Of a stretch of DNA of 64,000 nt, positions 453 through 31,999 are shown piece by piece. Every line of letters begins with the position of its first letter. The stretch's first letter is position 1. Location: NCBI RefSeq assembly GCF_021021555.1, contig NZ_JAINWA010000003.1, forward strand, positions 682,001-746,000, written 5' to 3'. Source of the stretch: Teretinema zuelzerae (GTDB lineage: Bacteria; Spirochaetota; Spirochaetia; Treponematales; Treponemataceae). Below the pieces are notes generated by a model. The model did not search any database and was not told the origin of the DNA. It worked only from the letters and a program-made list of their open reading frames with translations. Made by a program: the position numbers and the translations under genes.

Positions 453-2086
453 GGGGTTCGACCCTCCAAAGCGGTGTTTCCGGGGTTTTCCTTCCCGGAC
501 TGTTCATGGCGGATGCCGGCCATGTACAGGGCGAAATCTGCCTGGCTCGACTCGGGATCGAGGATGCCCGCGATTTCGCCGTTGGAAACGATGGCGACGC
601 GGTCGCAGATGGAGCGGAGCTCTTCAAGCTCGCTGGATACCATCACGATGGTGGTTCCCTGGTCCCTGTTCACCCGGCGAAGCACGTCGAGAACGATAGA
701 CTTCGCGCCGATGTCGATTCCGCGGGTTGGCTCCGAAACGAACAGAAGATCCGGCCCGAGGCAGAACGCCTTTGCGAGGCACACCTTCTGCTGGTTTCCT
801 CCGGACAGCTCCTTGGCCGCCTGGAATGAGCCGGTGCACTTGATCTCCAGCATTTTGATGTATTCGTCGGCGAGTTCCTTCATTGCCTTCTCGTCTCTCT
901 GGGTAAAGAGGCCGCCGAGCCAGGATTTCAGAAATCTGCCTTGAGTCTGCATCGCGGTGAAGGCGATATTCCACTCAAGGGTTTCATCCAGCAGGAGACC
1001 GACCCCGCGCCTATCTTCCGATACGAAGGCAAGGCCTTCCAGGAGCGGAACGCGCGGATTCCCGAGAGGAAGGGGCTTGCCCTTGAACATCACGGAACCG
1101 CCGGCGGGATAGAGGCTCATGATCCCGTTGGGGATGCCGATCTTGCCCTGGCCAGCCAAACCGCCGATGCCGAATATTTCTCCCTGGCGCACTTCGAAGG
1201 AAGCGTTCCGGACGATTTCTCCGGGCATGTCCACCCACAAGCGGTCGACCGACAGAATCGGCTCGCCGAACGAGCGGCCCGCTTCCCGGCGAGCGGCGGT
1301 ATTCACTTCGCGGCCGACCATGGAAACGGCGATGTCCTCGATGGTGGTCTGCGAGGCGGGAATGTCGCGGACGGATTTTCCGTCGCGCAGAGTCAGCACG
1401 CGGTCGCAGATATTCACGATTTCGTGGAGCCGATGGGAAATAAAAATAACCGCGATGCCTGTCTGCGCGAGCTTTTTTACAGCCGCCAGAAGGATTTCCG
1501 CTTCCGATTCGGTTAAAACCGCGGTGGGCTCGTCGAGAACCAGAATGCGCACGCGTTCGCGGTCGATTTCTCGCGCGATTTCAGTAAACTGTTTATGTCC
1601 GATGGGCATTTCGGAAATCTTCATCTCGGGATCGATTTCGATTCCAAGGCGGGAGATGGCCGACTGAGCCCGGTCCTTCATGGTTTTTCTGTCCAGGGTC
1701 CGCATGCGCGGTCCGAAGACGTCTGAGATGATGCCGGGTTTCGATATCTCCCGGTTAAGCATGATGTTTTCAACGGCGGTGAATCCGGGAATGAGAGAAA
1801 ACTCCTGGTGAACCATTCCGATACCCGCGTCGAGAGCGTCGAAGGGACTGGAAAAGGAGACTTCCTTTCCGTCCACAAGAATTTTTCCGCCGTAACCGCC
1901 CGTTTCGCGGATCACCGGCATGCCGAAAAGGATGCTCATGAGGGTGGTTTTTCCCGCCCCGTTTTCGCCGACCAGCCCGAGGATTTCGCCCGCGGCCAGA
2001 TCAAAGCTGACGTTCTCAAGGACAACGGTTCCGGAGAAGTCTTTGGTTACGCCTTCAAGGCGCAATAGTGGTGTTTCATTAGACAT
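449..2086 (-). CDS. sugar-type ABC transporter ATP-binding protein (tandem ATPase, MglA/RbsA class)
   Basis: 545-residue double ATPase. The first cassette has Walker A GENGAGKTT and Walker B ILVLDEPTA; the second has a degenerate P-loop (GLAGQGKIG), signature LSGGNQQKV and LLFVSEPTRGID. This asymmetry is normal for the RbsA/MglA class, where the second site is often degenerate. The start was placed at MSNETPLL because AGGAAG lies just upstream; the open frame extends 26 residues further without a better ribosome site. The gene lies between the DUF3798 binding protein (about 120 bases upstream) and a permease (4-base overlap). It powers import of an unknown, probably small, solute. Confidence 0.9.
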   Translation of the reverse strand: MSNETPLLRLEGVTKDFSGTVVLENVSFDLAAGEILGLVGENGAGKTTLMSILFGMPVIRETGGYGGKILVDGKEVSFSSPFDALDAGIGMVHQEFSLIPGFTAVENIMLNREISKPGIISDVFGPRMRTLDRKTMKDRAQSAISRLGIEIDPEMKISEMPIGHKQFTEIAREIDRERVRILVLDEPTAVLTESEAEILLAAVKKLAQTGIAVIFISHRLHEIVNICDRVLTLRDGKSVRDIPASQTTIEDIAVSMVGREVNTAARREAGRSFGEPILSVDRLWVDMPGEIVRNASFEVRQGEIFGIGGLAGQGKIGIPNGIMSLYPAGGSVMFKGKPLPLGNPRVPLLEGLAFVSEDRRGVGLLLDETLEWNIAFTAMQTQGRFLKSWLGGLFTQRDEKAMKELADEYIKMLEIKCTGSFQAAKELSGGNQQKVCLAKAFCLGPDLLFVSEPTRGIDIGAKSIVLDVLRRVNRDQGTTIVMVSSELEELRSICDRVAIVSNGEIAGILDPESSQADFALYMAGIRHEQSGKENPGNTALEGRTP

Positions 2087-2207
2087 AGCTTCCTGCTGTG
2101 GAAAAGCCGATCGGCCTTCCGGCTCCGCGAGGAACCGGAGAGGACTTGAAAACCCCGGCTGCATGAAGCGGCCGGGGTATCATGATCAACCCTTCAAAAA
2201 AAGGTGT

Positions 2208-3434
2208 TTATTTGGAGAACTTGATGTTGTAGTACTTCTCGGGGACTTCGAGAGAAGTCGTGGGCAGATAGCCCTGTCCGAAAATGTACGTATCCATGTA
2301 CACGAGTGTGTGGTTCTTCGCGCGCACGCCGGTGTTCGCGTCGATATAGCTTCCGCCGTTCCACTTGGCGCCGGGGGTGTATTCGCCCAGCGATTTGTAG
2401 AGGTCGCTCATGCTTCCCTTGGTCGCGGTTCCCTCGACGATTCTCTTCGCGTACTCGCCGAGTCCGGCGGTGACGGTGAATCCGTAGGAGAAGGCCCAGG
2501 TTCCGAACTTGCCGGCGCCGGCTTTCGCGACGACGGTGGATTCAACCTTCTTGAGGATGGCGGGGAAATTTCCCGCTTCCGCAGAGAGGTCGATTCCGAA
2601 AGCTCCCGGATATCCCATGAGGGGAGAAGGAAGATCGGCTTCCACGAACATTCCGCCGAAGGCCGCGATCTGCTTCAGCAGGGGCTCGGTGTGGGCGTCG
2701 TTGGTGCAGAAAAATGCGGTTTCCTTTCCGTACTTCTGGATCCACTGGGGAACCTTCTCGAGGATGAACTGCTGGGCGCCCGCGACGCCGACGTCGCTGG
2801 TGGGGTCGGGAGCTGTTTCGAATACGAAATTAAGCCCGAGGTCCTTACAAGCGGCTTCCATGATCTGGCGGCGGAGTCCCAGGGATTCATAGGACATATG
2901 GCGGGGGAAGGAAATGTGAACGAAGTTCTTCGCTCCCATCTGCTTGGCCGCCCAAATGATAGTGTATCCGCGGGAAATGAAGTCAGCGTTGATCGCGAGA
3001 TCGGCTGACGACTGGATGACGAGGGGATCTTCGTGGGCTTCGCCTGCGAAGCACAGAATGTCCGGTCTTTTCGCCTTTACGCGCTTGAACGCTTCCGCTG
3101 TTCCGGGAACAGCCTGGTTCACGACGATGGCTTTCATGGCGGGGTCGTCGGCAAGGGCGACGATCTGGGAGATGGTGGTCTCCTGCTGGGACATGAAGTC
3201 GTCGGGATAGGTGATGTGCTGGATCATGCCGCCGGTCTTAACCGCGCCGTAGCGTTTGATCAGTTCTTCCGCTCCGCGAAGATCGTCTTCGGATTGCGAA
3301 ACCGTTCCGGTCACCACGCCAATGTGGAAACCACCGGCCTTTGCGGTAGTCTTGCCGGCTTCCTGAGTGCCGCCTGCGAAGACCATGGAAGCGGCAGCTA
3401 AAACAGCCGCAAGAGTCAAAAGTCTCTTAGTCAT
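2208..3434 (-). CDS. DUF3798-family periplasmic binding protein of an ABC transporter
   Basis: 408 residues with a signal peptide (MTKRLLTLAAVLAAASMVFA) followed by GGTQEAG, a mature end common in treponemal exported proteins; the lipobox cysteine is absent. The mature part begins HIGVVTGTVSQSEDDLRGAE, which I recognise as the DUF3798 family (two-lobed, periplasmic-binding-protein-like, often treponemal or fusobacterial). It sits directly upstream of a sugar-type ATPase and permease, so it is most likely the solute receptor of that importer. The ligand is unknown. AAGGAG precedes the ATG. The family call is from memory of the motif, not from a search. Confidence 0.8.
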   Translation of the reverse strand: MTKRLLTLAAVLAAASMVFAGGTQEAGKTTAKAGGFHIGVVTGTVSQSEDDLRGAEELIKRYGAVKTGGMIQHITYPDDFMSQQETTISQIVALADDPAMKAIVVNQAVPGTAEAFKRVKAKRPDILCFAGEAHEDPLVIQSSADLAINADFISRGYTIIWAAKQMGAKNFVHISFPRHMSYESLGLRRQIMEAACKDLGLNFVFETAPDPTSDVGVAGAQQFILEKVPQWIQKYGKETAFFCTNDAHTEPLLKQIAAFGGMFVEADLPSPLMGYPGAFGIDLSAEAGNFPAILKKVESTVVAKAGAGKFGTWAFSYGFTVTAGLGEYAKRIVEGTATKGSMSDLYKSLGEYTPGAKWNGGSYIDANTGVRAKNHTLVYMDTYIFGQGYLPTTSLEVPEKYYNIKFSK

Positions 3435-3635
3435 ACAGAACTCTCCTTGTTTTTATTCAACCAGTGATATTACTACTCTTTTCCGCCCTCGGTAAACCTA
3501 AATTTACAAAAAACGCTGATATCCTCTCTTTTTTTCACTTATGTTAGACAATGTTGACAATATTTTTTTCCTGTGCTTTAGTAGCTGTGGTCTGACTGCA
3601 GCAGACCGTCTCTGCGAGCACGTAATTATCGGTGT
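3435..3635 (-). promoter_or_regulatory. intergenic region upstream of the DUF3798 gene, weak promoter candidate
   Basis: AT-rich upstream region of the binding-protein operon. On the minus strand TTTACC is followed 18 bases later by TAATAT, a weak -35/-10 pair. The inverted repeat GTAAA-6-TTTAC (3492-3507) overlaps the -35 and could be an operator. On the plus strand TTGACA (3554-3559) lies 17 bases before TTTAGT, and a small hairpin GGTCTG/CAGACC sits at 3589-3607; no reading frame follows. Both readings are tentative. Confidence 0.3.
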
Positions 3636-3673
3636 AAAAAAAAAGCCCCTGTCCGGAATAAACCGGACAGGGG
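3636..3673 (-). terminator. rho-independent terminator of the 79-residue gene
   Basis: Perfect 11-bp stem (3646-3656 with 3663-3673, 6-base loop) followed on the minus strand by nine T residues. It lies immediately after the stop of the small minus-strand gene and separates it from the DUF3798 transporter operon. Confidence 0.9.
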
Positions 3674-3678
3674 TTCCG

Positions 3679-3918
3679 CTAAATCAGGTGAGCCCACCAG
3701 GGCTCAAGAATCGGAAAGAAATACCGGTCGCTTTCGGGAAGCATGCTGATGAACTCCAGCGGTGCTACCTCTGCAAGATGAGCCGCCGCGTTGTTCATGA
3801 TCAATTCCCGCGACCGCTCGAGAATCCGTCTTTGCACAGGGAGCAAATGGCTGAACTCCGCGTTCACCAAAGCCATGTACTCCTCAGTCCAGACGACCAC
3901 CTCGGACATGTTGTTCAT
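3679..3918 (-). CDS. hypothetical protein, 79 residues
   Basis: Small protein starting MNNMSEVVVWTEEYMALVNAE, chosen because AGGAGG lies five bases before this ATG (the frame extends eight residues further upstream). It is mostly helical in appearance, with acidic N-terminus and a tryptophan-rich C-terminus (EPWWAHLI). There is no signal peptide or membrane segment. The gene stands alone, with a strong terminator just after its stop, which supports it being real. I do not recognise the family. Confidence 0.65.
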   Translation of the reverse strand: MNNMSEVVVWTEEYMALVNAEFSHLLPVQRRILERSRELIMNNAAAHLAEVAPLEFISMLPESDRYFFPILEPWWAHLI

Positions 3919-4082
3919 ACACCCCTCCTGGACACGATGCAAAGGATACTTTCAAACCATCTGGTTTCTTTGGAAGCCGATACTGCGATTCAGAGAGAGT
4001 CGATGTCTAGCTAAGATAATACGACAGGCTTCCTGAAAAAAACAGTAAAATCCATTTTTTTTCCAGAATCTCCACACCGTCG

Positions 4083-4122
4083 TTGCAAAAACAACAGGGT
4101 ATGATTAATTCGCGATATATCG
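4083..4122 (+). promoter_or_regulatory. promoter candidate with palindrome, upstream of the D-lactate dehydrogenase-like gene
   Basis: TTGCAA (4083-4088) and TAATTC (4106-4111) are 17 bases apart; the 10-base palindrome CGATATATCG (4113-4122) would cover the start site. The gene starts at 4190 after AGGAGG. The rest of 3919-4189 also contains the upstream region of the divergent 79-residue gene; no other signal seen. Confidence 0.4.
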
Positions 4123-4189
4123 TCTTTTTTTTAACGAATCCTATTTTCCTACTAAACCGATTGTAGTATATTTCATTCAGGAGGAATCC

Positions 4190-5284
4190 ATGAAAGACCA
4201 CGTGCGTATCGCTTTTTTCGATACTAAACCATATGACCGGAACTACTTCGAGGCGGGAGCCCGTCAGGAGGAATTTTCGGATATGCGCTTCGAGTTCAGC
4301 TTCTTCGAGAGCAAGCTGAATCCCGCCACAGCGGCCCTCGCGAAGGGCCACGAAGTCGTGTGCGCCTTCGTTAACGACAAGCTGGACGCTAAAACAATAG
4401 AAGCCCTGTCCGCAGGAGGCGTAAAACTGATAGCCCTCCGCTGCGCGGGATACAACAATGTGGATCTGCAGGCGGTGTGGGGGAAAATCCATGTCGTGCG
4501 CGTTCCGGCCTATTCTCCGCACGCGGTGGCCGAACATGCGGCGGCCCTGTTGCAAACCCTGAACAGACGCATCCACACCGCGTACAACAGGACACGGGAC
4601 GGCAACTTCACGCTCACCGGACTGGTCGGCCGGGATCTCTACGGAAAAACCGCCGGCATTATCGGAACCGGAAAAATCGGCAAGATTCTCGCGACCATCC
4701 TTCACGGCTTCGGCATGAAAATCCTGCTGGACGACCTCTATCCGGACCAGGCCTTCGCGCAGTCCATCGGAGGAGAATACGTCAGCCGGGAAAGACTCTA
4801 TGCGGAGTCCGACGTCATCAGCCTCCACTGTCCGCTCACGCCCGAGAACAAATACATGATCAACGCGGAAACCCTGAAGCTGATGAAAAAAAGCGCAATC
4901 GTCATCAATACAGGCCGCGGAGGACTCATCGATACGAAGGCCCTGGTCGATGCGCTCAAGAACGGAAAGATTCGCGGCGCGGGGCTCGATGTGTACGAGG
5001 AGGAGGATCAGTACTTTTTCGAAGATAAATCGATGGAACCGATCAGGGACGATGTTCTCGCGCGGCTGATCCAGTTTCCCAACGTCCTGCTCACCTCTCA
5101 CCAGGCCTTTCTCACCGAGGAGGCACTCGGAGAGATCGCGCGGGTGTCGCTCGACAATGTCAGGCGATGGAAAAAGGGCGAGCCGCAGATTAACGAAATT
5201 TGCTACCGATGCGTTGACGCGGGAAAGGCTTCAAGCTGCGCGAAAACGACGGAGGGACGTTGCTGGGCGGAAAGCAAACACTGA
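4190..5284 (+). CDS. D-2-hydroxyacid dehydrogenase (D-lactate dehydrogenase-like)
   Basis: 364 residues, D-isomer-specific 2-hydroxyacid dehydrogenase fold. The NAD-binding motif GIIGTGKIGK lies near residue 156. The RGGLID segment near 240 and the catalytic histidine in TSHQAFLTEEA near 303 are present, as is the catalytic arginine region in INTGRGG. The closest relatives by motif are LdhA-type D-lactate dehydrogenases, which would reoxidise NADH in fermentation. The protein is 30-35 residues longer than E. coli LdhA, ending in a cysteine-bearing tail (CYRC, then two more cysteines and GRCW). Start set by AGGAGG seven bases upstream. Substrate (pyruvate or another 2-oxoacid) is inferred. Confidence 0.88.
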   Translation: MKDHVRIAFFDTKPYDRNYFEAGARQEEFSDMRFEFSFFESKLNPATAALAKGHEVVCAFVNDKLDAKTIEALSAGGVKLIALRCAGYNNVDLQAVWGKIHVVRVPAYSPHAVAEHAAALLQTLNRRIHTAYNRTRDGNFTLTGLVGRDLYGKTAGIIGTGKIGKILATILHGFGMKILLDDLYPDQAFAQSIGGEYVSRERLYAESDVISLHCPLTPENKYMINAETLKLMKKSAIVINTGRGGLIDTKALVDALKNGKIRGAGLDVYEEEDQYFFEDKSMEPIRDDVLARLIQFPNVLLTSHQAFLTEEALGEIARVSLDNVRRWKKGEPQINEICYRCVDAGKASSCAKTTEGRCWAESKH

Positions 5285-5297
5285 TGCAGAACGCGAA

Positions 5298-6200
5298 TCA
5301 AGGGGCTGCGGAGGGGTCGTAATACAAGACCTCTTCGCAGTCTTCAGGCTTCAAACCCTTCATTATTCGGAGTTCTGCGCGAAAGGCTTCCGAGCGCTCG
5401 GCGATGTAGGGTAAAAATCCTGTACAGGCGAGTTTTCTGTTCAATATAAGGCGGTCGACCTGGGCGAGTCCCTGCAAGCGGCAGCACAGGTTTATTCCGT
5501 AGCCGACGTAGTCGCGGTATTTGAGCTGGCTCGCTTCCGCCGAAATTTCGTATTTGAACACTTTTTCCGCCACAAGGGCGCCGCCGAGGCCGAGCCCCGG
5601 ATACGGCTTGAACAGCTCCTCGTTCACGAATTCGGTGTAGGTGTCGAACACCTGCAGCGCCTCGGCGACCGATTCGCGCGTCGTATAATCCCAAATCACC
5701 AGGGCGCCGTCTCCCAGCAGCTTGTACCAGGAACAGCCGAAGGCGAATTGATTGACGCAGGAGAGAAAGTTGGAGGTGAAGTCCTTGATCAGACGAAAGA
5801 CCTCGTCCTCGCGGTTGTTGCGCAGAAAGTTGCTGAAATTGCGGATGTCGACGCAGAGAATCAGAGCGTCGTTCTTTACTTCGTCGAGATAGACGTTGTC
5901 GAAAATGTCCACCGGCATTTTGTGAAGGCCTGAAAGAGCCGAAGAATCCAGTTCGAGGGATTGATCCAGGACGCGGATGAGCGCGTGGGGAGACCCCAGC
6001 AGGCCGGAAATGCTAGAAATAATAGCGTCGTCTGTAGGAAAACACGCCATCTGAACCCTGCCGATAAGGACAGGATCGGATGAGTCCCCGTCGACAACGA
6101 CGAGAGAGCCGTCTTCTTCAAAGGCTATCGCGACGGTTCGCTGAGCGAAGGTTTCCGTGTTTTCGAGAAGAAATGACCGGGCTTTCAGGTTCACGAACAT
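5298..6200 (-). CDS. class III adenylate/guanylate cyclase domain protein
   Basis: 300 residues. An N-terminal region of about 110 residues, without recognised domain, precedes a class III cyclase homology domain. The first metal aspartate is in ILCVDIRNFSNF, the substrate-base lysine and second metal aspartate are in YKLLGDGALVIWD, and the transition-state asparagine and arginine are in GYGINLCCRLQG. All catalytic positions I can check are present, so it is probably active, making cAMP from ATP (the YRDYVG aspartate also fits adenine). No membrane segment is seen. No strong ribosome site precedes the ATG. It is transcribed away from the flavodoxin gene. Input signal unknown. Confidence 0.8.
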   Translation of the reverse strand: MFVNLKARSFLLENTETFAQRTVAIAFEEDGSLVVVDGDSSDPVLIGRVQMACFPTDDAIISSISGLLGSPHALIRVLDQSLELDSSALSGLHKMPVDIFDNVYLDEVKNDALILCVDIRNFSNFLRNNREDEVFRLIKDFTSNFLSCVNQFAFGCSWYKLLGDGALVIWDYTTRESVAEALQVFDTYTEFVNEELFKPYPGLGLGGALVAEKVFKYEISAEASQLKYRDYVGYGINLCCRLQGLAQVDRLILNRKLACTGFLPYIAERSEAFRAELRIMKGLKPEDCEEVLYYDPSAAP

Positions 6201-6229
6201 ACGCCCATGATAACATATCGTAAAAGGAT

Positions 6230-6258
6230 TTGCATCAGCCCTTCACTCGGGATATACT
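6230..6258 (+). promoter_or_regulatory. sigma-70 type promoter of the flavodoxin gene
   Basis: TTGCAT (6230-6235), 17-base spacer, TATACT (6253-6258). The start codon of the flavodoxin gene follows at 6286 with GGAGG between. Confidence 0.6.
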
Positions 6259-6285
6259 TTTTCAAGCGAGTTTTTTGGAGGCATT

Positions 6286-6789
6286 ATGAAATCCGTACTG
6301 ATTGCGTACTACACGAAAACCGGTTCAACGAAGGAAACGGCCCAACTCATCGAAAAAACCCTGAAAGAAGCGGGATTGAACGCTGAGGCGAAGGCCGTCT
6401 CCGATGATCTTTCGCCCGCCGATTACGACGCGTGCATCATCGGGGGTCCGGTCAACGGCATGCAGTGGGTTCCCCAGGCTGCGCAGTTCGCGTCGAAGTG
6501 GGCCGAAATCCTTAAAACAAAGAAGACGGTGCTTTTCTGCCTCTCCTATATTTACCTTACCGGCGGCAGCTTCTGGAAAAACTCGATCGCAAAAATCCTG
6601 AAACCCTTCGCCGATTCGACGGACGCGATGGAAACGGCAGTGTTCGGCGGGCGCGTCGAAGGGCCGCTCCCTGCGCCGATGCGATTCATCTTCGGGATAA
6701 AAAGGGACAGCCCCCTGGATCTGGTGAACCACGAAGGAATCGCCGCCTGGGCAAAGGAGCTCGCGCCGCGTCTGCAAGACGGAGACTGA
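6286..6789 (+). CDS. flavodoxin-domain protein
   Basis: 167 residues. It opens MKSVLIAYYTKTGSTKETA, the flavodoxin FMN-phosphate loop (TxTGxT), and continues with the central strand DYDACIIGGPVNGMQW and TVLFCLSYIYLTGG. Length fits a single flavodoxin fold. It resembles the HemG-like/flavodoxin-domain oxidoreductases rather than the classical acidic electron-transfer flavodoxins, so a quinone or small-molecule reductase role is possible. Soluble, cytoplasmic. GGAGG precedes the ATG. No operon partner. Confidence 0.85.
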   Translation: MKSVLIAYYTKTGSTKETAQLIEKTLKEAGLNAEAKAVSDDLSPADYDACIIGGPVNGMQWVPQAAQFASKWAEILKTKKTVLFCLSYIYLTGGSFWKNSIAKILKPFADSTDAMETAVFGGRVEGPLPAPMRFIFGIKRDSPLDLVNHEGIAAWAKELAPRLQDGD

Positions 6790-6832
6790 GCGGAGACTGC
6801 GAGCGGTCCTTATTCTCGGAAATGAAAAACGC

Positions 6833-7513
6833 TTACGGAAACCGGGATGAAAGGTAGTGATAGCGGCTTCGCAAAATCGCGCTTTTATTCAGGGAATAGG
6901 GTTCGTATTTGATAGGCGACGATAAAAGAGTGACCAGGCGGACAGCCTGATCGGATGACAGAGAGGCGACGCCCCGGCGATAGTGATGGCGCGAGGCGGC
7001 CTCGATGCCGTAGACGCCCTTTCCCCACTCCGCGTAATTGAGATAGAGCTCCAGAATCCGGTCCTTGTCGAGAATAAGCTCCATCTCCAGAGCGATAATC
7101 ATTTCCAGATATTTTCTAAGATAGCTTTTTTCCGGCACCAGAAAGAGGGTTCGGGCGGTTTGCATGGTGATCGTGCTGCCGCCGTAGACCGGCTTCTCAA
7201 GCTGTTTATTAACCAGCCAGGCGTGTTTCAGGGCTGAGGGTATAATGCCGTGATGGGAATAAAAGGTTCCGTCTTCCACCCGGATAACCATCTGGCGGAC
7301 TTTCTTCGGAATCTTGCCCAGAGGAAGGAAGCGCATTTCGTTCGAAGGCCACTTATAGGCGATCTTCCGATAGATCATGATGCCGGTCGTCCGGGGATTC
7401 GCCGTCCGATACCGGAAGAGCAAAACCGACGTGAACAGCATGAAGGCCACATGAAGAACCGCAATCGCGGCGAGCGCGCGAAGCGCAAACCGCGCAATCT
7501 TATTCTGACGCAT
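6833..7513 (-). CDS. mtgA: monofunctional peptidoglycan glycosyltransferase
   Basis: 226 residues. One N-terminal membrane helix (about residues 9-33) is followed by a GT51 domain. Motif 1 is VEDGTFYSHHG (catalytic glutamate); GGSTITMQTAR and the helix ending ILELYLNYAEWG are also present. There is no transpeptidase domain, so it is a monofunctional enzyme that polymerises lipid II glycan strands in the periplasm. Start set at ATG of MRQNKIARF; the frame continues 13 codons up to a TTG, and neither has a clear ribosome site. The usual motif GGSTITQQ reads GGSTITMQ here. Confidence 0.88.
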   Translation of the reverse strand: MRQNKIARFALRALAAIAVLHVAFMLFTSVLLFRYRTANPRTTGIMIYRKIAYKWPSNEMRFLPLGKIPKKVRQMVIRVEDGTFYSHHGIIPSALKHAWLVNKQLEKPVYGGSTITMQTARTLFLVPEKSYLRKYLEMIIALEMELILDKDRILELYLNYAEWGKGVYGIEAASRHHYRRGVASLSSDQAVRLVTLLSSPIKYEPYSLNKSAILRSRYHYLSSRFP

Positions 7514-7570
7514 ACAGGGGCTTACTCTAGCTGGTATTGAATACCTGAGCAAGCCCCCGTCAAGGAGACC

Positions 7571-8155
7571 TTACATCGAAGCGATGTTCATCCCTGCGCG
7601 TATCGCGGAAGCGTTCAGCGGCACCAGGGCCTGCTTCGATTTCGGAAAAAAGCCCGTCAGAATCGAGTCTACCGAGTCGAGGGACAGAGCGCCGGTGAGG
7701 CGGGCGAGTGCGCCGAGCATCACCATATTTGCGGTTTTGACCGAGCCCAGCTTTGCTGCGATCTCTCCGGCGGCAACCTGTACGACGCGGAAGCGGTCCT
7801 TCCAGGAACCGCCCTTTTCGGGAGCGAGTCCGACGGAAGCGGGATCGAGGGCGTCCAGATCCACCAGAGACGAGTTTACCAGCAGAAGCCCGCCTTCGGC
7901 GAGTACGGAAACGCAGCCGGACAGGCTGTCCTGATTCATCACCACGACCGAATCGGCCTTGCTGATGATGGGGCTCGCAATGCCCTCGTCCGAGACGATG
8001 CAGTTCGCGCGGGCGATTCCTCCGCGTTTCTCGGCTCCGTAGAACGGAAAAAAGCTCACCTCTTTTCCCTCCTTCATCCCGAAATAGCCCCAAATCTGAC
8101 CCAGGGATATGATTCCCTGGCCGCCGAAACCGGCGAATACCGTCTTTTCGCTCAT
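7571..8155 (-). CDS. 2-oxoacid:ferredoxin oxidoreductase, gamma subunit
   Basis: 194 residues of the pyruvate/ketoisovalerate oxidoreductase catalytic (gamma) domain: it opens KTVFAGFGGQGIISLGQIWG and contains the family segment FFPFYGAEKRGGIARANCIVS. The domain contacts CoA and helps in acyl-CoA formation. It is the last gene of a four-gene operon (ferredoxin, alpha, beta, gamma), overlapping the beta gene by four bases. Substrate specificity comes from the alpha subunit. Confidence 0.9.
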   Translation of the reverse strand: MSEKTVFAGFGGQGIISLGQIWGYFGMKEGKEVSFFPFYGAEKRGGIARANCIVSDEGIASPIISKADSVVVMNQDSLSGCVSVLAEGGLLLVNSSLVDLDALDPASVGLAPEKGGSWKDRFRVVQVAAGEIAAKLGSVKTANMVMLGALARLTGALSLDSVDSILTGFFPKSKQALVPLNASAIRAGMNIASM

Positions 8156-8919
8156 TTAACGCCTCCTGCCTTTCCGGGCAGCTCGTTTTTCACTATCCCG
8201 AGCGGATAGTAGGGAATCATTTCATTTTCCAGCCACTCGACAGCCTGGACCGGCTCCATGCCCCAGTTCGTCCCGCAGGGGGACAGAATCTCAACCATGG
8301 AAAAACCGATTCCGTTCATTTGGGCTTCGAAGGCCGTCTTTATGTAGCTTTTCAGCTTGCGCACGTTCGCGGGCGAGTTGACCGCCCCGCGCGCAAGGTA
8401 GCGGGTGCCGCCCAGGGTGGCGAGCATTTCCAGGACGCGGATGGGATACCCCATTCCCTGCCCTTCCGGATCGCGGCCCATCGGAGCGGTTGCGGCCTTT
8501 TGCCCCACCAGCGTGGTCGGGGCCATCTGGCCGCCGGTCATGCCGTATATCGCGTTGTTCACGAAAATAACCGTAAATTTTTCTCCGCGGTTGGCCGCAT
8601 GGATGATTTCCGCCGTCCCGATCGCGGCGAGGTCTCCGTCTCCCTGGTAGCAGATGACCAGATGGTCCGGGAGAACCCGCTTGATTCCGGTAGCCGCGGC
8701 GGGCGTTCTGCCGTGGGCGGGCTGCACCGAATCGAAATCGAAATAGAGATCGGCCCAGATGGCGCAGCCGACCGGATTGGTGATGACGGCGCGGCCCTGC
8801 ATGCCCATCTCGTCGATCAGTTCGCAAATTATGCGGTGCACGACTCCGTGGCCGCAGCCGGCGCAGTATTTCGTCTGCACGGAAGCCAGGGAGCGGGGGT
8901 GTTCGGCGACTGTGATCAT
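8152..8919 (-). CDS. 2-oxoacid:ferredoxin oxidoreductase, beta (TPP-binding) subunit
   Basis: 255 residues. The segment YCAGCGHGVVHR carries conserved cysteines, and CYQGDGDLAAIGTAE followed by IFVNNAIYGMTGGQ is the thiamine-diphosphate/magnesium binding motif (GDG ... N). The beta subunit carries out decarboxylation of the 2-oxoacid and passes electrons to the ferredoxin subunit. Both ends overlap neighbours by four bases, so the subunits are translationally coupled. Confidence 0.92.
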   Translation of the reverse strand: MITVAEHPRSLASVQTKYCAGCGHGVVHRIICELIDEMGMQGRAVITNPVGCAIWADLYFDFDSVQPAHGRTPAAATGIKRVLPDHLVICYQGDGDLAAIGTAEIIHAANRGEKFTVIFVNNAIYGMTGGQMAPTTLVGQKAATAPMGRDPEGQGMGYPIRVLEMLATLGGTRYLARGAVNSPANVRKLKSYIKTAFEAQMNGIGFSMVEILSPCGTNWGMEPVQAVEWLENEMIPYYPLGIVKNELPGKAGGVK

Positions 8920-9995
8920 CGGTTTTCCTCCATAAGAGAGCGGATGCGCCCAAGAACTTCATCCTCGGTGGGAACCATGCCGCCGGTGTGGGCAAGCAGA
9001 TGGACGGGAACCTTGCCGGATACCGCGAGGCGGATATCCTCGCGCATCTGCCCCATGCTCATTTCCACCGATAAAAGAGGCGTTCCCCGCTCGGCGAGGC
9101 TCAACAGGCGGGCGGAAGGAAAGGGCCACAGGGTGACCGGGCGGAACAATCCGACCCGGAGGCCTTCCTCCCGGGCACGTTCCACCGCCGCGCGGGAAAC
9201 CCGTGCGGAAGTTCCGTAGGCAACGATTACCAGCTCGGCGTCGGCGCACTGATATTCATCCGCGCGCGTTTCCTCCGCTTCTACCCGCTCGTAGCGTTTG
9301 AAGCGGTCGAACACAAGAGCTTCCAGCTCCTCAGGCACGAGGTTTATAGAAGTAATATGGCGCGCAGGCCGGGAATCGCTACCCATATTGCCGACGGCCC
9401 AGGATGCGCCGATGCGGGAGGGAGTTCTCGATTCGGGCAGCGTGATCGCTTCCATCATCTGGCCGATGACTCCGTCTCCCAGAATTAGCACCGGCATGCG
9501 CCACTTTTCCGAGAGGTCGAAGGCGAGCACGGTCAGATCGGCGCATTCCTGCACGCTTGAAGGCGCGAGCACGATGACCCGGTAGTCTCCGTGGCCGCCG
9601 CCCCGGGTAGACTGAAAATAATCGCTCTGCGCCGGCGCTATCGATCCCAATCCGGGACCGCCGCGCACGATGTTTACATATACAAGAGGAATATCGGCGC
9701 CTGCCGCATAGGAAATTCCTTCCTGTTTCAGGCTGATTCCCGGACTCGAAGAGCTGGTCATCGAGCGGGCTCCCGCCGCCGCGGCTCCGTACACCATGTT
9801 TATCGCCGAAACTTCGCTTTCAGCCTGGATGAAAATCCTTCCCAGCCGGGGCATCGCCTCGGCCATATAGGCGATAAGCTCGTTCTGCGGCGTTATCGGA
9901 TAGCCGAAATAGGCCTGGCAACCCGCGCGTATGGCCGCCTCTGCTATCGCCTCGTTTCCCTTCATCAGGGTCCGCTGATTCTCTGTAGTCTTCAT
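8916..9995 (-). CDS. vorB: 2-oxoacid:ferredoxin oxidoreductase, alpha subunit, VorB type
   Basis: 359 residues. LMKGNEAIAEAAIRAGCQ, GYPITPQNELIAYM, MTSSSSPGISLKQEGIS and IVRGGPGLGSIAPAQSDYF are the signature of the VorB/KorA group, closest in my memory to VorB proteins annotated for 3-methyl-2-oxobutanoate (ketoisovalerate). The enzyme would convert branched-chain 2-oxoacids plus CoA to branched acyl-CoA, reducing ferredoxin; 2-oxoglutarate is the alternative. Start set at MKTTENQRT, which overlaps the ferredoxin stop (ATGA) and follows GGGAG. The divergent fabH makes the branched-chain assignment more attractive, since its product would be a fatty-acid primer. Confidence 0.85.
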   Translation of the reverse strand: MKTTENQRTLMKGNEAIAEAAIRAGCQAYFGYPITPQNELIAYMAEAMPRLGRIFIQAESEVSAINMVYGAAAAGARSMTSSSSPGISLKQEGISYAAGADIPLVYVNIVRGGPGLGSIAPAQSDYFQSTRGGGHGDYRVIVLAPSSVQECADLTVLAFDLSEKWRMPVLILGDGVIGQMMEAITLPESRTPSRIGASWAVGNMGSDSRPARHITSINLVPEELEALVFDRFKRYERVEAEETRADEYQCADAELVIVAYGTSARVSRAAVERAREEGLRVGLFRPVTLWPFPSARLLSLAERGTPLLSVEMSMGQMREDIRLAVSGKVPVHLLAHTGGMVPTEDEVLGRIRSLMEENR

Positions 9996-10219
9996 GAATG
10001 GCTCCCGTCTTCCCGATACACGGTAATCGCGCAATCAGGGCAAACCTGATAGCAGGAGGCGCAACCGGTGCATGATTCCGGGCGCAGGACCGCTGCGGGA
10101 CAGGTTCCCGAACGGTTCATGGAACTGTCGGGACCGATGACTGAAAAAGGACAGGCTCTGAAACAGAGACCGCAGCCCTTGCATCTTTCCCGGTCGATTC
10201 GAATGCTTCCACGTGTCAT
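9992..10219 (-). CDS. 2[4Fe-4S] ferredoxin subunit of the 2-oxoacid oxidoreductase
   Basis: 75 residues with two full cluster motifs: CKGCGLCFRACP and CTGCASCYQVCP. It is the delta subunit that accepts electrons from the TPP-bearing subunit and hands them to free ferredoxin. It is the first gene of the operon, preceded by AAGGAG and overlapping the alpha gene by four bases. Confidence 0.93.
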   Translation of the reverse strand: MTRGSIRIDRERCKGCGLCFRACPFSVIGPDSSMNRSGTCPAAVLRPESCTGCASCYQVCPDCAITVYREDGSHS

Positions 10220-10238
10220 GTGCTGATCTCCTTTTTCT

Positions 10239-10305
10239 ACTTTATGACACTTTAAGATATTTTGTCAATTTGACATATTGACAAATAATGCACATATGCT
10301 ATTTT
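10239..10305. promoter_or_regulatory. divergent promoters of the vor operon and fabH with shared operator
   Basis: Minus-strand promoter for vor: TTGACA (complement of 10263-10268), 18-base spacer, TAAAGT (complement of 10239-10244). Plus-strand promoter for fabH: TTGACA (10278-10283), 16-base spacer, TATTTT (10300-10305). Between them lies a perfect 9-bp inverted repeat TTTGTCAAT / ATTGACAAA (10261-10269 and 10277-10285, 7-base spacer), with a third TTGACA half-site (10270-10275) inside. One dimeric regulator, for example of MarR/FabT or TetR type, could control both directions. The regulator gene is not identified. Confidence 0.6.
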
Positions 10306-10309
10306 TAGC

Positions 10310-10351
10310 GTGCAACCATTTCAGACACCGGTGGGTCAAAAAAGGTTGCAC
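10310..10351 (+). promoter_or_regulatory. inverted repeat in the fabH leader
   Basis: GTGCAACC (10310-10317) and GGTTGCAC (10344-10351) are perfectly complementary and begin at the predicted transcription start. The 26 bases between contain the small palindrome CACCGGTG. In RNA this would fold into a leader hairpin just before the ribosome site (AAGGAG) of fabH. No T-run follows, so it is not a simple terminator. Confidence 0.45.
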
Positions 10352-10381
10352 CGTACTTTAGAGACAGCAAGGAGTTTTGCG

Positions 10382-11395
10382 ATGGCAGTCGAAATTATTT
10401 CTACAGGAAGCTACCTGCCCGCCCGCCGGGTTACGAACGATGAACTTTCAAAGACAGTAGAAACCAACGATGAATGGATCAGAAGCCATACGGGTATCGG
10501 TTCGAGGCACATCGCATCCGAAGAGGAAGCGACCAGCGACCTTGCGGTCAAGGCGGCTCTGGCGGCTTTCGAGACTCTCGCTCCCGGAAACCCGGAATCG
10601 GTAGCTGAAACGATTGATCTGGTGATAGTGGGAACATCGTCCCCCGATTACTACGGATTTCCCTCGGTAGCCTGCATCGTTCAGGATAAGCTCGGCATCA
10701 AGAAAGCAGGCGCCTTCGATCTCGTCGCGGCCTGTTCAGGCTTCGCCTACTCGCTGGAAGCGGCGGCGGGCATGTTGTCGCTCGGAAACAGGAAAAGAGC
10801 CCTCGTTATCGGAGCGGACACCCTCACCCGGATTACCGACTGGGAAGACCGCGGAACCTGCGTACTGTTCGGAGACGGTGCGGGAGCGGCGATCCTCGAG
10901 CGGACGGACGCCCCGGCGGAAGGTCCGCAGAAAAGGGGTCTCATCCATACCGTGCTCGGCTCGGAAGGAAACGGAGCGCTCGAGCTCTATTGCGAAAAAG
11001 GCGGATCCAGGAATCCCTATAAAGACGGGGAGACGATCGAGAAAAAAACGCATATCTATATGAACGGACGCGCCGTTTATACCTTCGCGGTTCGCGCCTT
11101 CACCGATACGATGGAGCGGCTTCTCGAAGAAACCGGTCTAACGATGGCAGACATCAAAAAAATCGTGCCGCATCAGGCCAACATGCGCATCATTCAGGCA
11201 GCGGCGAAGCGGCTGGGCATTCCCGAAGACAAGTTCTTCATGAACATAGAAAAGTACGCGAATACCTCGAACGCCACGATCCCGATAGCCCTTGACGAAT
11301 ACGCCCGCACCGGAGAATTGCACAAGGGCGACATCATCATGACCGTCGGTTTCGGCGGGGGGCTCACCTACGCGGGAAATATCATTGTCTGGTAA
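10382..11395 (+). CDS. fabH: beta-ketoacyl-ACP synthase III
   Basis: 337 residues. Catalytic cysteine 118 is in FDLVAACSGFAYS, the histidine in IVPHQANMRI and the asparagine in YANTSNATIP, giving the Cys-His-Asn triad of KAS III. It condenses an acyl-CoA primer with malonyl-ACP to start fatty-acid synthesis. Start set at the ATG after AAGGAG; a GTG 24 codons upstream has no ribosome site. It stands alone, without other fab genes, and is divergent from an operon that probably makes branched acyl-CoA. This suggests that it uses branched primers, as FabH of Gram-positive bacteria does; that point is inference. Confidence 0.93.
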   Translation: MAVEIISTGSYLPARRVTNDELSKTVETNDEWIRSHTGIGSRHIASEEEATSDLAVKAALAAFETLAPGNPESVAETIDLVIVGTSSPDYYGFPSVACIVQDKLGIKKAGAFDLVAACSGFAYSLEAAAGMLSLGNRKRALVIGADTLTRITDWEDRGTCVLFGDGAGAAILERTDAPAEGPQKRGLIHTVLGSEGNGALELYCEKGGSRNPYKDGETIEKKTHIYMNGRAVYTFAVRAFTDTMERLLEETGLTMADIKKIVPHQANMRIIQAAAKRLGIPEDKFFMNIEKYANTSNATIPIALDEYARTGELHKGDIIMTVGFGGGLTYAGNIIVW

Positions 11396-27538: not shown

Positions 27539-28480
27539 TTATTGAAGAGCCTTCGAAAGTTCATTGCCCATCAACTCGATATTCGAGAGCCAATCGGGCG
27601 AAAGAGGATCGAGATACACCACCCTCGCCCCGACTTCCCTTGCGATGCGCTCGGCGGCGCTTACCGGAAACTGTTTCTGCACGAAAATCGCGCGGGTGTT
27701 CTCTTCGCGGGCGCGCGCTATGAGTTCTGTAAGGACGCGGGGAGTAGGCTCCTTTCCGCCGGTTTCGACTGATTCCTGCCCGATGTCGAACTCGTCGAGA
27801 AAATATCCGAATGAAGGGTGAAACACCAAGACCTCCGAACCGGCGAGCGGAGCGAGATCCTTGGAAAGCTTCGCGAATACAGCGTTGATTTCGGCGGTCA
27901 GAGAGTCGTAGTTCGCCGCGTACTGCGCGGCTCCGGCGGGATCGATCTTGGTAAGAGCGACGCGGACATGAGCAGCGAGAATCAGGGCAGGCTCCCTGCC
28001 GAGCCAGGTATGGCGGTCTATGCTGCCCGGTTGATCGTGATCGGCGGAAGCATCCTCGTTTGAATGGCCGTCGTCATGATCTTCTCCCTCTTCGTCGTGA
28101 TGATCGTGCCCCTCCATCGAACGGAACGTCACGCCCCGGGTTCCGTCAACCTGGACCAGCGAAGGAAACTGTTTTGCAATTTTCGGCTGGAGGCCTTCTT
28201 CGAAATCCGTTCCCGAGAGTATCCACAGCGAGGCCCGGGCGAGATCCGCCATCTGCCGGGGAGTCGGATCGTAGGAATGGGGGCTCTGTCCCTGGCCGAC
28301 CAATACGAGCACGTCGAACCGGTCTCCCGCGATCCGCTCAACGAAGTATTGCTGCGGAAGTATGCTCACCGCGACGAGGGGCTTAGAAGCTGCCGGCTGC
28401 GAATCGGCGTTTCCCGCGGCGTATGCGCCGGTTGCCGCGATAAAAAGAAGAACTGCTATAAGAAGACGATAATTTTTCAT
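27539..28480 (-). CDS. znuA: zinc ABC transporter substrate-binding protein
   Basis: 313 residues, cluster A-I metal-binding protein with signal peptide. Metal-ligand histidines are in GQSPHSYDPTP (His 68), SIDRHTWLG and LVFHPSFGYF, and an aspartate is in VVYLDPLS. A histidine- and acid-rich loop (GHDHHDEEGEDHDDGHSNED, about residues 123-142) between the first two ligands is typical of zinc-specific ZnuA. The ATPase and permease genes are not adjacent, so they must be encoded elsewhere. A 19-base palindrome upstream (28521-28539) is the likely metal-regulator site. Confidence 0.9.
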   Translation of the reverse strand: MKNYRLLIAVLLFIAATGAYAAGNADSQPAASKPLVAVSILPQQYFVERIAGDRFDVLVLVGQGQSPHSYDPTPRQMADLARASLWILSGTDFEEGLQPKIAKQFPSLVQVDGTRGVTFRSMEGHDHHDEEGEDHDDGHSNEDASADHDQPGSIDRHTWLGREPALILAAHVRVALTKIDPAGAAQYAANYDSLTAEINAVFAKLSKDLAPLAGSEVLVFHPSFGYFLDEFDIGQESVETGGKEPTPRVLTELIARAREENTRAIFVQKQFPVSAAERIAREVGARVVYLDPLSPDWLSNIELMGNELSKALQ

Positions 28481-28570: not shown

Positions 28571-28598
28571 AAAAGCCGGTCGTTCCGGACCGGCTTTT
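28571..28598 (-). terminator. terminator after feoB and the repeat array
   Basis: Perfect 11-bp stem (28571-28581 with 28588-28598, 6-base loop). The stem itself begins and ends with four A/T pairs; only a short T-run follows on either side. A feoB transcript would cross the whole repeat array before reaching it. Confidence 0.55.
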
Positions 28599-28640: not shown

Positions 28641-29106
28641 GGCGCGAGCTCGCGGTGTTGCGCGCGAGCTCGCGGTGTTGCGCGCGGGCTCACGGTGTTG
28701 CGCGCGAGCTCACGGTGTTGCGCGCGGACTCGCGGTGTTGCGCGCGGGCTCACGGTGTTGCGCGCGAGCTCACGGTGCTGCGCGCGAGCTCACGGTGTTG
28801 CGCGCGGGCTCACGGTGTTGCGCGCGAGCTCACGGTGTTGCGCGCAGGCTCACGGTGTTGCGCGCGAGCTCACAGTGTTGCGCGCAGGCTCACGGTGTTG
28901 CGCGCGAGCTCACGGTGCTGCGCGCGGGCTCACGGTGTTGCGCGCGAGCTCACGGTGCTGCGCGCGAGCTCACAGTGTTGCGCGCAGGCTCACGGTGTTG
29001 CGCGCGAGCTCACGGTGCTGCGCGCGGGCTCACGGTGTTGCGCGCGAGCTCACGGTGCTGCGCGCGAGCTCACGGTGTTGCGCGCGAGCTCACGGTGTTG
29101 CGCGCG
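28641..29106. repeat. tandem array of 23 units of a 20-base repeat, with 100-base higher-order duplication
   Basis: Twenty-three 20-base units in perfect register (28641-29100) plus six more bases. Consensus CGCGCGAGCTCACGGTGTTG. Variation is confined to few positions: gagct/gggct/aggct, cacgg/cgcgg/cacag, and tgttg/tgctg. The five-unit block 28861-28960 is repeated exactly at 28961-29060, showing expansion by block duplication. All three plus-strand frames are open only because the unit contains no stop triplet; there is no ATG or ribosome site, so I do not call a gene. The right end of the array forms the last codons and the stop of feoB. Confidence 0.95.
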
Positions 29107-31465
29107 CAATCGCCGGCTTGCGATTCGCTCGTCCCATCCAGGCGAAAATTCCGACAACAAGAACAAGGAGCGCGCAGGCGAAGACAATCCAGAATGCCTG
29201 TCCGCCCGAGGCGATCTGATAAAACAGAGTCGCGACGATCCAGGCGAGCACGGTTAGATACGTCACTGATACGGCTCCGAAGACCGGACCGATTTCCCTC
29301 ACGATAGCCCCGAGCGCCGCGAAGCAGGGGAAATAAATCAGGATGAACAACAGGTACGCATAGGCCGCGGCCGAGTTCCCTCCGAACGAATTTCTCAGGC
29401 TCGTAAACAGGCCTTCGTCGGCCTCGATCTCCTCCGCTATCGTCGATTCATCCTCCGAAACAAGGGACATGCCGGCAGGATCGCGCAAGGTTCCGGCGAG
29501 ACCCGACAGCCCTTCCGGAATCGAACGGAAGGCCGCCTGAAGCTCCGACATGAGGCTCCATGATTCTTCCGGCGCTGAAGATTCCGCCGTTTCAAGACCA
29601 TCCGCGCCCGAAGAGGGATTCTCGTCTGTTTCGGCATCTAAAGCGGGCACGGCCATTTGGCCGTACAGACCATTGAGAGTTCCGACGACAGCTTCTTTCG
29701 CGAACAAACCGGTGAAAATGCCGACCGTAGCGGGCCAGTTGTCGGCGCTGATGCCCATCGGAGCGAATACAGGCGTGATGGCTCGGCCGACTGAAGCGAG
29801 GACTGAAGATTCGGTGTCTTCGTTGCCGATTGAACCGTCTGTTCCGATAGTGTTGAGCATTCCCAAAAGAGCGACAACGATTATGATGACCCGGCCGGCG
29901 CGAACGACGAAAGACGACAAACGCGACCAGGAATGTCGGAGTATCGCTCCGAGCCGGGGCAGGTGCCAGGGGGGCAGTTCCATCACGAAGGGAGCGGGTT
30001 CGCCCTTGAAGAGGGTGTTCTTCAGAAGAAATCCGGTGAGAACGGCGAGGACGATGCCCGTCAGGTACAAACTCAATACGACGAGTCCGGAAGAAGCGCC
30101 GAAAAAGGCCGCGCCGAAGAGCGCGTAGACGGGAAGCCGGGCTCCGCAGGACATGAAGGGAACCATGAAAACCGACAGATATCTGTCGCGCTTGTTTTCA
30201 AGGGTTCGGGTCGCCATCACCGCGGGCACCGTGCAGCCGAAACCGACGATCATCGGGATGAAGGCTTTTCCGGGAAGGCCGATAGCACGCAGAGCGCGGT
30301 CCATTACGAAGGCGGCCCGGGCCATATAGCCTGAGTCCTCGAGCAGGGACAGCATGAAGAACATCATGAACATGATGGGGACGAAGGTGGAAACAGTCTG
30401 AATGCCCGCGCCGACCCCGTTTGCGAGAAGGGCGACCAGCCAGGACGGAGCGCCGCCGCTTTCGAGAAGGAGGGCGAAGCCGTCGACGAATACTGCTCCG
30501 AAAAGAATATCGAAGAAATCGATGAATGCGCCGCCGAAATTAATAACCACGGCGAACAGAAGATACATGACGCCGAGGAACAGGGGAATTCCGAGGAAAC
30601 GGTTAAGAACGAGGCGGTCCAGACGGTCGGCGGCTCGCGCCGAAACCGGCCTGCTTGTTCGGGATGCTCCCGAAGCCGACGCGATGGTTTCATATTTAGC
30701 CGAAGCGATGACGGAGTCCGGGGTATCTCCCTCAGCGCTTTCAATTTCCTTCATAGCCCTTTCGATATCCTCGGAGGAAAGTACTCCGGCATCCGCAACG
30801 CGCCCGGCGAGGAAGGAATCGCCTTCGAGCAGTTTTATCGAAAGCCAGTCGGGATCGGCCCCGAGACTCGAAGCCACAGGAGCAAGAGCTTCTTTCCACG
30901 CAGAAGCCGCTGCGGTTATTGAAGTCGGATACGGAACGATAAGCCGGGAAGGAGAGATCGAGGATGAATCCGCAGCGATCGTCTCGCGCACCCGTTTGAC
31001 GTCGTCGGCATTAACGGCGCTTATCGCCATAACCGGAACGCCGAGGGATGCAGACAAGGCAGAAGGATCGATTTTGATGCCTTTTTTTTCGGCAAGATCC
31101 ATCATATTAAGAACGACGATCAGAGGAACGCGCATTTCTATCAGGCTGAGGGTGAGGAAGAGATTCCGTTCAAGATTGGAAGCGTCCACGATGTTCACCA
31201 CCAGGCCGGCTTCATTGGACAAAAGATAATCTCTGGCTGCCCGTTCGTCGTCAGAATGGGAGGAAAGCGAATAAATTCCGGGAAGATCTACTATCGTGTA
31301 GTTTTTTCCGGCATGAGGCATGTCGCCGGTCTTTTTTTCCACTGTTACGCCGGGCCAGTTGCCCACACGCTGGCGGCTGCCGGTAAGCGCGTTGAAAAGG
31401 GTTGTCTTCCCCGAGTTGGGGTTTCCGGCGATCGCTATGGTCAACGCCTTGTTTCCGTCTTTCAT
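29090..31465 (-). CDS. feoB: ferrous iron transport protein B
   Basis: 791 residues. The N-terminal GTPase domain has G1 GNPNSGKTT, G3 DLPGIYSLSSHSDDE and G4 NMMD; a helical GDI-like domain follows to about residue 270, then the membrane core with two Gate motifs (FMVPFMSCGARLPVYALFG, and the later FYQIASG helix). It imports Fe2+ across the inner membrane. The C-terminal half has an acidic cytoplasmic loop around residues 610-690 (ETDENPSSGADGLETAESS). Its last codons (ARATP and the stop) lie inside the 20-base tandem array. It overlaps feoA by four bases. Confidence 0.95.
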   Translation of the reverse strand: MKDGNKALTIAIAGNPNSGKTTLFNALTGSRQRVGNWPGVTVEKKTGDMPHAGKNYTIVDLPGIYSLSSHSDDERAARDYLLSNEAGLVVNIVDASNLERNLFLTLSLIEMRVPLIVVLNMMDLAEKKGIKIDPSALSASLGVPVMAISAVNADDVKRVRETIAADSSSISPSRLIVPYPTSITAAASAWKEALAPVASSLGADPDWLSIKLLEGDSFLAGRVADAGVLSSEDIERAMKEIESAEGDTPDSVIASAKYETIASASGASRTSRPVSARAADRLDRLVLNRFLGIPLFLGVMYLLFAVVINFGGAFIDFFDILFGAVFVDGFALLLESGGAPSWLVALLANGVGAGIQTVSTFVPIMFMMFFMLSLLEDSGYMARAAFVMDRALRAIGLPGKAFIPMIVGFGCTVPAVMATRTLENKRDRYLSVFMVPFMSCGARLPVYALFGAAFFGASSGLVVLSLYLTGIVLAVLTGFLLKNTLFKGEPAPFVMELPPWHLPRLGAILRHSWSRLSSFVVRAGRVIIIVVALLGMLNTIGTDGSIGNEDTESSVLASVGRAITPVFAPMGISADNWPATVGIFTGLFAKEAVVGTLNGLYGQMAVPALDAETDENPSSGADGLETAESSAPEESWSLMSELQAAFRSIPEGLSGLAGTLRDPAGMSLVSEDESTIAEEIEADEGLFTSLRNSFGGNSAAAYAYLLFILIYFPCFAALGAIVREIGPVFGAVSVTYLTVLAWIVATLFYQIASGGQAFWIVFACALLVLVVGIFAWMGRANRKPAIARATP

Positions 31466-31698
31466 CCAAGCCTCCGAATTTCGAGCACGTCCGATTCAGC
31501 TTTGCGGAGGCTTAACCGGAAACCTCTCACTTCGATTTCCACGGGATCTCCGAGCGGAGCCACGCGAAGAACCTTGAAGGGAGTTCCCTTCGTCAAGCCC
31601 ATCGCGAGCAGTTTGTCGCGGTACACCGCATCTGAACGGGAGTAGCCGGCGACTTCTCCGGTGCTCCCGATTTCCATATCCTTCAATTTCAGATCCAT
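31462..31698 (-). CDS. feoA: ferrous iron transport protein A
   Basis: 78 residues, SH3-like FeoA fold: SDAVYRDKLLAMGLTKGTPFKVLRVAPLGDPVEIEVRGF contains the conserved L-MGL-G and GDP-EI-V-G motifs. It is thought to bind FeoB and tune its GTPase. Start set at MDLKLKD after AAGGAG; 14 further upstream codons are open but unsupported. It overlaps feoB by four bases. Confidence 0.92.
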   Translation of the reverse strand: MDLKLKDMEIGSTGEVAGYSRSDAVYRDKLLAMGLTKGTPFKVLRVAPLGDPVEIEVRGFRLSLRKAESDVLEIRRLG

Positions 31699-31783
31699 AT
31701 CGTAATCTCCTTGCGAGAATAAATTACCCAAAGCTAACAAACTGATGAAAAAAAATCGGAAACACTCGTTTCCGATTACAAGC

Positions 31784-31999
31784 CTAGCGCACGATCACCT
31801 TTCCGGCGATGCCGCGGCCGAGCATAACGCGGCTGCCGAGAACTTCCAGAAGCAAGGGGCCGCCTCCGGCCTTCTCCAGCATGCGCACGGGAACGCCGGG
31901 AACAAGACCGAGCTCCAAAAGATGTTCGCGGGCGCCGCATCCGCCTTCGACCCGGACAACAACACCGCGTTTACCGTTCTCAAGTTCGCATAAGCCCAT
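31784..31999 (-). CDS. feoA: second FeoA-domain protein
   Basis: 71 residues, FeoA family: REHLLELGLVPGVPVRMLEKAGGGPLLLEVLGSRVMLGRGIAGKVIV. It starts with MGLCELENGKRG after GGGAGG. First gene of the operon, 85 bases before the second feoA. It differs from its neighbour in sequence, so the pair is not a recent duplication. Two FeoA proteins with one FeoB are found in several anaerobes. Confidence 0.9.
   Translation of the reverse strand: MGLCELENGKRGVVVRVEGGCGAREHLLELGLVPGVPVRMLEKAGGGPLLLEVLGSRVMLGRGIAGKVIVR

Follow-up and report, generated by a model that had tools for sequence, protein, structure and literature searches.

Among the known repeats close to those described here are REP elements and BIMEs. 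These sequences (GTAG/CGTC families) are about 20-40 bp long, extragenic and high in copy number; they lie between convergent and unidirectional genes, less than 20 bp from 3' ends, where they sometimes supply the stop codon, and some REP elements are found inside coding genes, encoding 20-82 residues (PMC3733652). REP-like elements and VNTRs are usually kept apart. Mycobacterial MIRUs can overlap stop codons, and the short tandemly repeated repetitive (STRR) sequences of cyanobacteria consist of short heptamer units. In the single genome of the spirochaete Teretinema zuelzerae, which belongs to the order and family of Treponema, a related family of tandem arrays is found both in the niche of REP elements, i.e. 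stop codons and convergent gaps, and in the niche of the Rickettsia palindromic elements (RPE), i.e. in frame in conserved enzymes. A literature search found no description of such an array family.

The window analysed here is a 64-kb stretch of this 3.62-Mb genome, which is assembled in 3 contigs, and its features are displayed in Table 1 together with the arrays found elsewhere. Behind feoB, TRF reported an array of period 20 with 23.2 copies, 90% matches, 0% indels and a score of 769, the runner-up array within the window scoring only 79. All units are in 20-base register, and their mean identity to the consensus is 0.948 (94.8%), in agreement with the 23 units and few variable positions described in the initial annotation. 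The variable positions are transitions only; the single transversion is the very first base, at the array edge. The unchanged repetition of a five-unit block, noted before, also holds, the two blocks being identical. The last 17 bases of feoB overlap the array, so the gene ends in repeat sequence, which provides its final codons and the TGA (29090-29092), as had been claimed. The hairpin reported downstream of the array is likewise present; on the + strand, a simple hairpin scan returned only a shorter form of it. This hairpin is likely a bidirectional intrinsic terminator. The product of the next gene looks, by eye, like a metal-binding ABC transporter component of the ZnuA type. Upstream of feoB, two feoA genes stand in a row (31462-31999). 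Rfam reported one tRNA over the window and nothing else.

Table 1. Features of the feoB locus and of the repeat arrays in the host genome (positions without a contig name are those of the window)
Feature	Position	Strand	Remarks
Next gene	27539..28480	-	313-aa protein; in tandem with feoB; ZnuA-like by eye
Symmetrical hairpin	near 28571..28598		AAAAGCCGGTC-N6-GACCGGCTTTT, A/T flanks; read from sequence; downstream of array
feoB tandem array	28642..29106 (C3:710642-711106)		about 23 units of 20 bp; + strand consensus CGCGCGAGCTCACGGTGTTG; TRF and unit table; counted among the intergenic arrays
Five-unit block, copy 1	28861..28960		identical to 28961-29060
Five-unit block, copy 2	28961..29060		exact 100-bp duplicate of 28861-28960
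feoB	29090..31465	-	791 aa; NCBIfam NF007105 and TIGR00437 above cut-off
feoA	31462..31698	-	upstream of feoB; Pfam PF04023
Second feoA	31784..31999	-	Pfam PF04023
earP array	C3:670904-671182 (L217 8904-9182)		18 bp, in frame; flanked by halves aligning to solved EarP
GspE/PilB-type ATPase array	C1:29492-29838 (L168 9492-9838)		21 bp, in frame; between two CxxC motifs
Intergenic arrays filling a stop-to-stop gap almost wholly	C1:1033856-1034385; C1:1071092-1071671; C1:1126874-1127111; C3:848028-848355		TRF
Other intergenic arrays, contig C1	47620-48268; 321015-321251; 334416-334548; 1091687-1092152; 1138738-1138864		TRF
Other intergenic arrays, contig C3	629375-629764; 751001-752244; 906931-907600; 1325540-1325624		TRF
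Y1-type transposase (Y1_Tnp)	C3:1575633-1575965 (L247 1384-1947)		RAYT-like by eye; beside histidine biosynthesis genes

According to the initial annotation, a change in the length or phase of the array could alter the FeoB C-terminus. In the feoB sense, TGA is found at the same offset in 20 of the 23 units, and the gain or loss of whole units therefore leaves the feoB stop in place. After a phase shift at the junction, stops are reached at codons 5, 11 and 18 in the three frames, i.e. within 18 codons. These counts indicate that unit gain or loss would extend FeoB by a short tail at most. Moreover, comparison of C-termini shows that the FeoB tail past the last membrane segment is variable and poorly conserved in relatives, which may be why the array is tolerated at this site. 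The supposed effect on the protein was thus not borne out. A VNTR reading of the feoB array is plausible. An assembly artefact, in the form of a wrong unit number or a false block duplication, might be suspected from the exactness of the 100-bp duplication, such repeats being hard to assemble; however, it is extremely improbable in view of the variants scattered among the units, an assembly of only 3 contigs and the many unrelated arrays that behave alike.

What the initial annotation had missed is that the feoB array is one copy of a genome-wide family, although it had proposed a search of the genome for further copies of the unit. When the genome was searched at the DNA level, another, diverged site was located where rmuC ends (E 1.7e-6), and this array likewise overlaps the stop codon of its gene. 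In a sample of 1.264 Mb of the genome, 14 intergenic arrays were placed, the arrays being found by TRF and the genes called with a home-made simple 3-periodic Markov caller; some stretches of the sample were picked for motif hits, which affects the density of arrays, not their position classes. Arrays were present in 7 of 126 convergent gaps, 6 of 659 tandem gaps and 1 of 113 divergent (promoter) gaps, an excess in convergent gaps with p = 0.0015 when gaps are counted and 0.0036 when bases are. The distance from array edge to nearest stop codon is mostly -17 to +33 bases, and four arrays occupy almost the whole gap between two stops (Table 1). Unit periods are mostly 19, 20, 39, 40 and 44, and array length reaches 1.2 kb. 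The flanking genes have no obvious common theme (RmuC, HisA-like, AraC-type regulator, P-II, CstA, BipA, aldo-keto reductase, amidohydrolase and others). Two repeats were left out of the family: L264 1881-2129, likely a coding repeat in an uncalled gene, and L226 13539-13648, a different hairpin repeat. The latter is a self-complementary repeat, TCCATTTCCCCAAACGGGGAAA (22 bp x 5), on the 28-kb contig C2, with few called genes nearby.

Apart from the gaps between genes, four arrays lie inside genes, and their units of 18, 18, 21 and 39 bp are all multiples of three. The host proteins are EarP, a GspE/PilB-type ATPase, an Fe-S (ferredoxin-type) reductase with an RDH-like match and an EcfA-EcfT fusion, the arrays being situated in linkers; those of the first three separate two parts of the protein that align to known folds. 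In EarP, query residues 180-285 are unaligned, against 168 to 201 in 5nv8; the stretch with the array is absent from the EarP of genomes G005 and G007. A full-length match had raised the suspicion of an array in the EarP of genome G003, which was rejected, its longer linker holding no tandem repeat. The ATPase has 127 residues between its CxxC motifs, where homologues from the same genus that show the canonical motif have 29-33, and the array stretch of the reductase measures 92 residues versus 10. The EcfA-EcfT fusion carries an 18-bp array in its linker; in G009, a genome of the same genus, the same linker holds different in-frame repeats of 54 and 57 bp (contig C238, L319/L321), which suggests that some sites are re-used or turning over. 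Additionally, a TPR-like protein with repeated VEAAAP contains an 18-bp x 16.5 in-frame array (L318 1508-1804, C3 near 873442), and a very large adhesin-like ORF (1140-10430) contains 291-bp x 8.8 repeats (L250 1-2566, C3 from 1315001).

The relationship among these arrays was assessed by pairwise comparison of the consensus units of 18 arrays on both strands, with circular dinucleotide-preserving shuffles and equal-GC genomic pieces as nulls. Mean similarity between arrays was 9.97, compared to 8.39 (sd 0.16) for shuffles and 7.71 (sd 0.20) for genomic pieces, i.e. about 10 SD above the dinucleotide null. These values bear on the possibility that the feoB array is an ordinary minisatellite, produced by slippage of a local 20-mer and unrelated to the other arrays. 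Tandem arrays of such size exist in bacteria generally, units vary from array to array, and in G009 a different array, short and unrelated-looking, directly follows the feoB stop (15 bp x 3.4, L033/L307 4573-4623). However, not only does the similarity between arrays far exceed both nulls, but the feoB unit itself scores high against arrays L185, L184 and c168, and array density in the host genome is exceptional: intergenic arrays of at least 100 bp number 9 in 1.12 Mb of less selected host sequence (7 of them family-type), against a single one across 0.77 Mb of mixed loci and none across 0.4 Mb of G005. An independent origin of the feoB array is therefore decidedly unlikely. Two arrays, L186b and c185, are hardly similar to the others, so some arrays may be independent.

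The 9-mer CGGTAAGCG has 106 copies in the genome, compared with 32 for the reversed control, and is clustered in at least 9 arrays at steps of about 20 bp. A motif common to so many arrays, at a spacing of about two helical turns, could be expected if the arrays were sites for a DNA-binding protein in chromosome organisation or regulation. The feoB array and several others lack CGGTAAGCG, unit sequences differ strongly between arrays, the spacing drifts (18 to 22, 39, 44), and the number of CGGTAAGCG singletons beyond the arrays is near the control level; a binding-site function for the arrays thus appears highly unlikely.

The family seems to be limited to a narrow lineage. Tandem GGTAAGCG has 18 matches in the host genome and at most 2 in any of the 393 other genomes of the order, among which no tandem family of this kind was found; none of the 11 further genomes of the genus has the feoB array. 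This limit is tentative, because the majority of the related genomes were assembled from short reads, and long arrays may drop out of such assemblies. Among viral contigs, no match to two consecutive units was found. The first 20 kb of contig C1 (L167, C1:1-20000) have a GC content of 0.39, compared to about 0.57 in most of the genome, and are likely a foreign island.

The location of arrays directly behind stop codons is also consistent with a functional 3'-end element, in which transcribed units would form hairpins or slow the polymerase and so end or stabilise mRNAs, with the arrays in convergent gaps acting from both sides. An intrinsic terminator was detectable in 0 of the 7 array-bearing convergent gaps. 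However, 89 of the 119 array-free convergent gaps were also without one, so the absence is not special; array-bearing gaps being indistinguishable from array-free gaps, the notion of arrays as replacements of intrinsic terminators was dropped. Moreover, feoB already has a downstream hairpin of its own. Four arrays are rich in AGCG-N-CGCT dyads, the stem variants of the feoB unit are C/T on the sense strand and keep G-U pairing, and the array, taken as feoB-sense RNA, is better folded than its dinucleotide shuffles (z -3.0), a null that destroys the repeat. When the null preserves the repeat, however, the units show no unusual folding (z from about -2.4 to +2.0 over arrays and strands, in most cases near 0). 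Since consensus units fold no better than shuffled ones on either strand, the idea of a dedicated RNA structure was given up as an overall account; a Rho-type C-rich signal was likewise discarded, because C-richness relative to transcription is inconsistent. The copies in frame within enzymes are without any such role. Ordinary unit folding, terminator counts and in-frame copies therefore speak against a single dedicated function, be it as RNA or in termination, and a 3'-end function of the arrays is rather unlikely. The earlier suggestion of an mRNA stability element or protein-binding array for feoB is weakened on the same grounds, since numerous arrays of the same sort follow unrelated genes or stand in frame in enzymes. 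The feoB array is probably not a dedicated regulator of feoB, and a lone array behind this gene should not be read as an iron-specific regulator.

Members of the family are mostly situated right behind genes or in frame in enzyme loops; the feoB array therefore looks less like a feoB switch than like a repeat that spreads and is tolerated. It probably represents, at this locus, a lineage-specific family of repeats with units of about 20 bp that seeds, amplifies in tandem and survives where it is least harmful. Short seeds related to units elsewhere would reach a new site by ectopic copying, template switching or a transposase, and slippage and unequal recombination would then amplify and homogenise them there; the exact 100-bp block duplication at feoB may be an instance of this. 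Selection would purge the copies that break promoters or reading frames, and the survivors would be those just past stop codons, especially where two genes converge, and those in frame within flexible loops of proteins; the one array in a divergent gap speaks against such a filter. At feoB, the array would have entered the 3' end of the gene and then supplied its last codons and stop. In this picture the array itself, the likeness among units, the placements and the multiple-of-three unit lengths are observed, and the spreading, the neutrality and the sequence of events are inferred. As for an agent of spreading, the genome encodes one Y1-type transposase (Table 1), with no arrays seen beside it at that locus, and one reverse transcriptase; neither could be linked to the arrays, and no agent was identified. 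Still more tentatively, the family may be a satellite-like selfish bacterial repeat, distinct from classic REP, whose seeds of about 20 bp spread, grow head-to-tail into arrays of as much as 1.2 kb and are retained at gene ends and in frame in loops of housekeeping enzymes; this wider proposal is possible but falls short of probable. The genome offers a case for studying how short repeats are seeded and grow in bacteria and how selection sorts them.

Compared with known systems, the arrays resemble VNTRs and minisatellites as direct tandem arrays of near-identical units between genes, with block duplication, but differ in being a family shared over many loci with different units, in having in-frame relatives in enzymes and in their strong preference for gene ends. 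Cyanobacterial STRR sequences, likened here by description, are also short tandem repeats scattered over the genome, whereas their units are heptamers. With RPE the arrays share in-frame insertion at tolerated sites of conserved protein genes (EarP, GspE/PilB, Fe-S reductase), but they consist of units of 18-21 or 39 bp, whereas RPE are single long palindromes (comparison drawing in part on PMC3733652). Several features set them apart from REP elements and BIMEs. The arrays are head-to-tail, in exact register, up to 1.2 kb long and built of array-specific units. There is no general hairpin palindrome, unit folding not exceeding that of shuffled units in most arrays and dyads being common in only 4. 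The GTAG/CGTC tags are absent or rare in most arrays, GTAG being frequent only in L220. Dispersed single copies are not in excess, CGGTAAGCG off the arrays being near control, and no RAYT gene is flanked by the repeats, the sole Y1_Tnp protein having no array beside it. As in REP elements and BIMEs, 13 of the 14 intergenic arrays lie downstream of genes in convergent or unidirectional gaps, with the convergent excess (p 0.0015); as in REP elements, the arrays are close to 3' ends, supply a stop codon (feoB) and also occur inside coding genes. With the palindrome, tag, single copies and flanking RAYT of REP elements lacking and the niche held in common, the arrays are best called a REP-niche family of tandem arrays.
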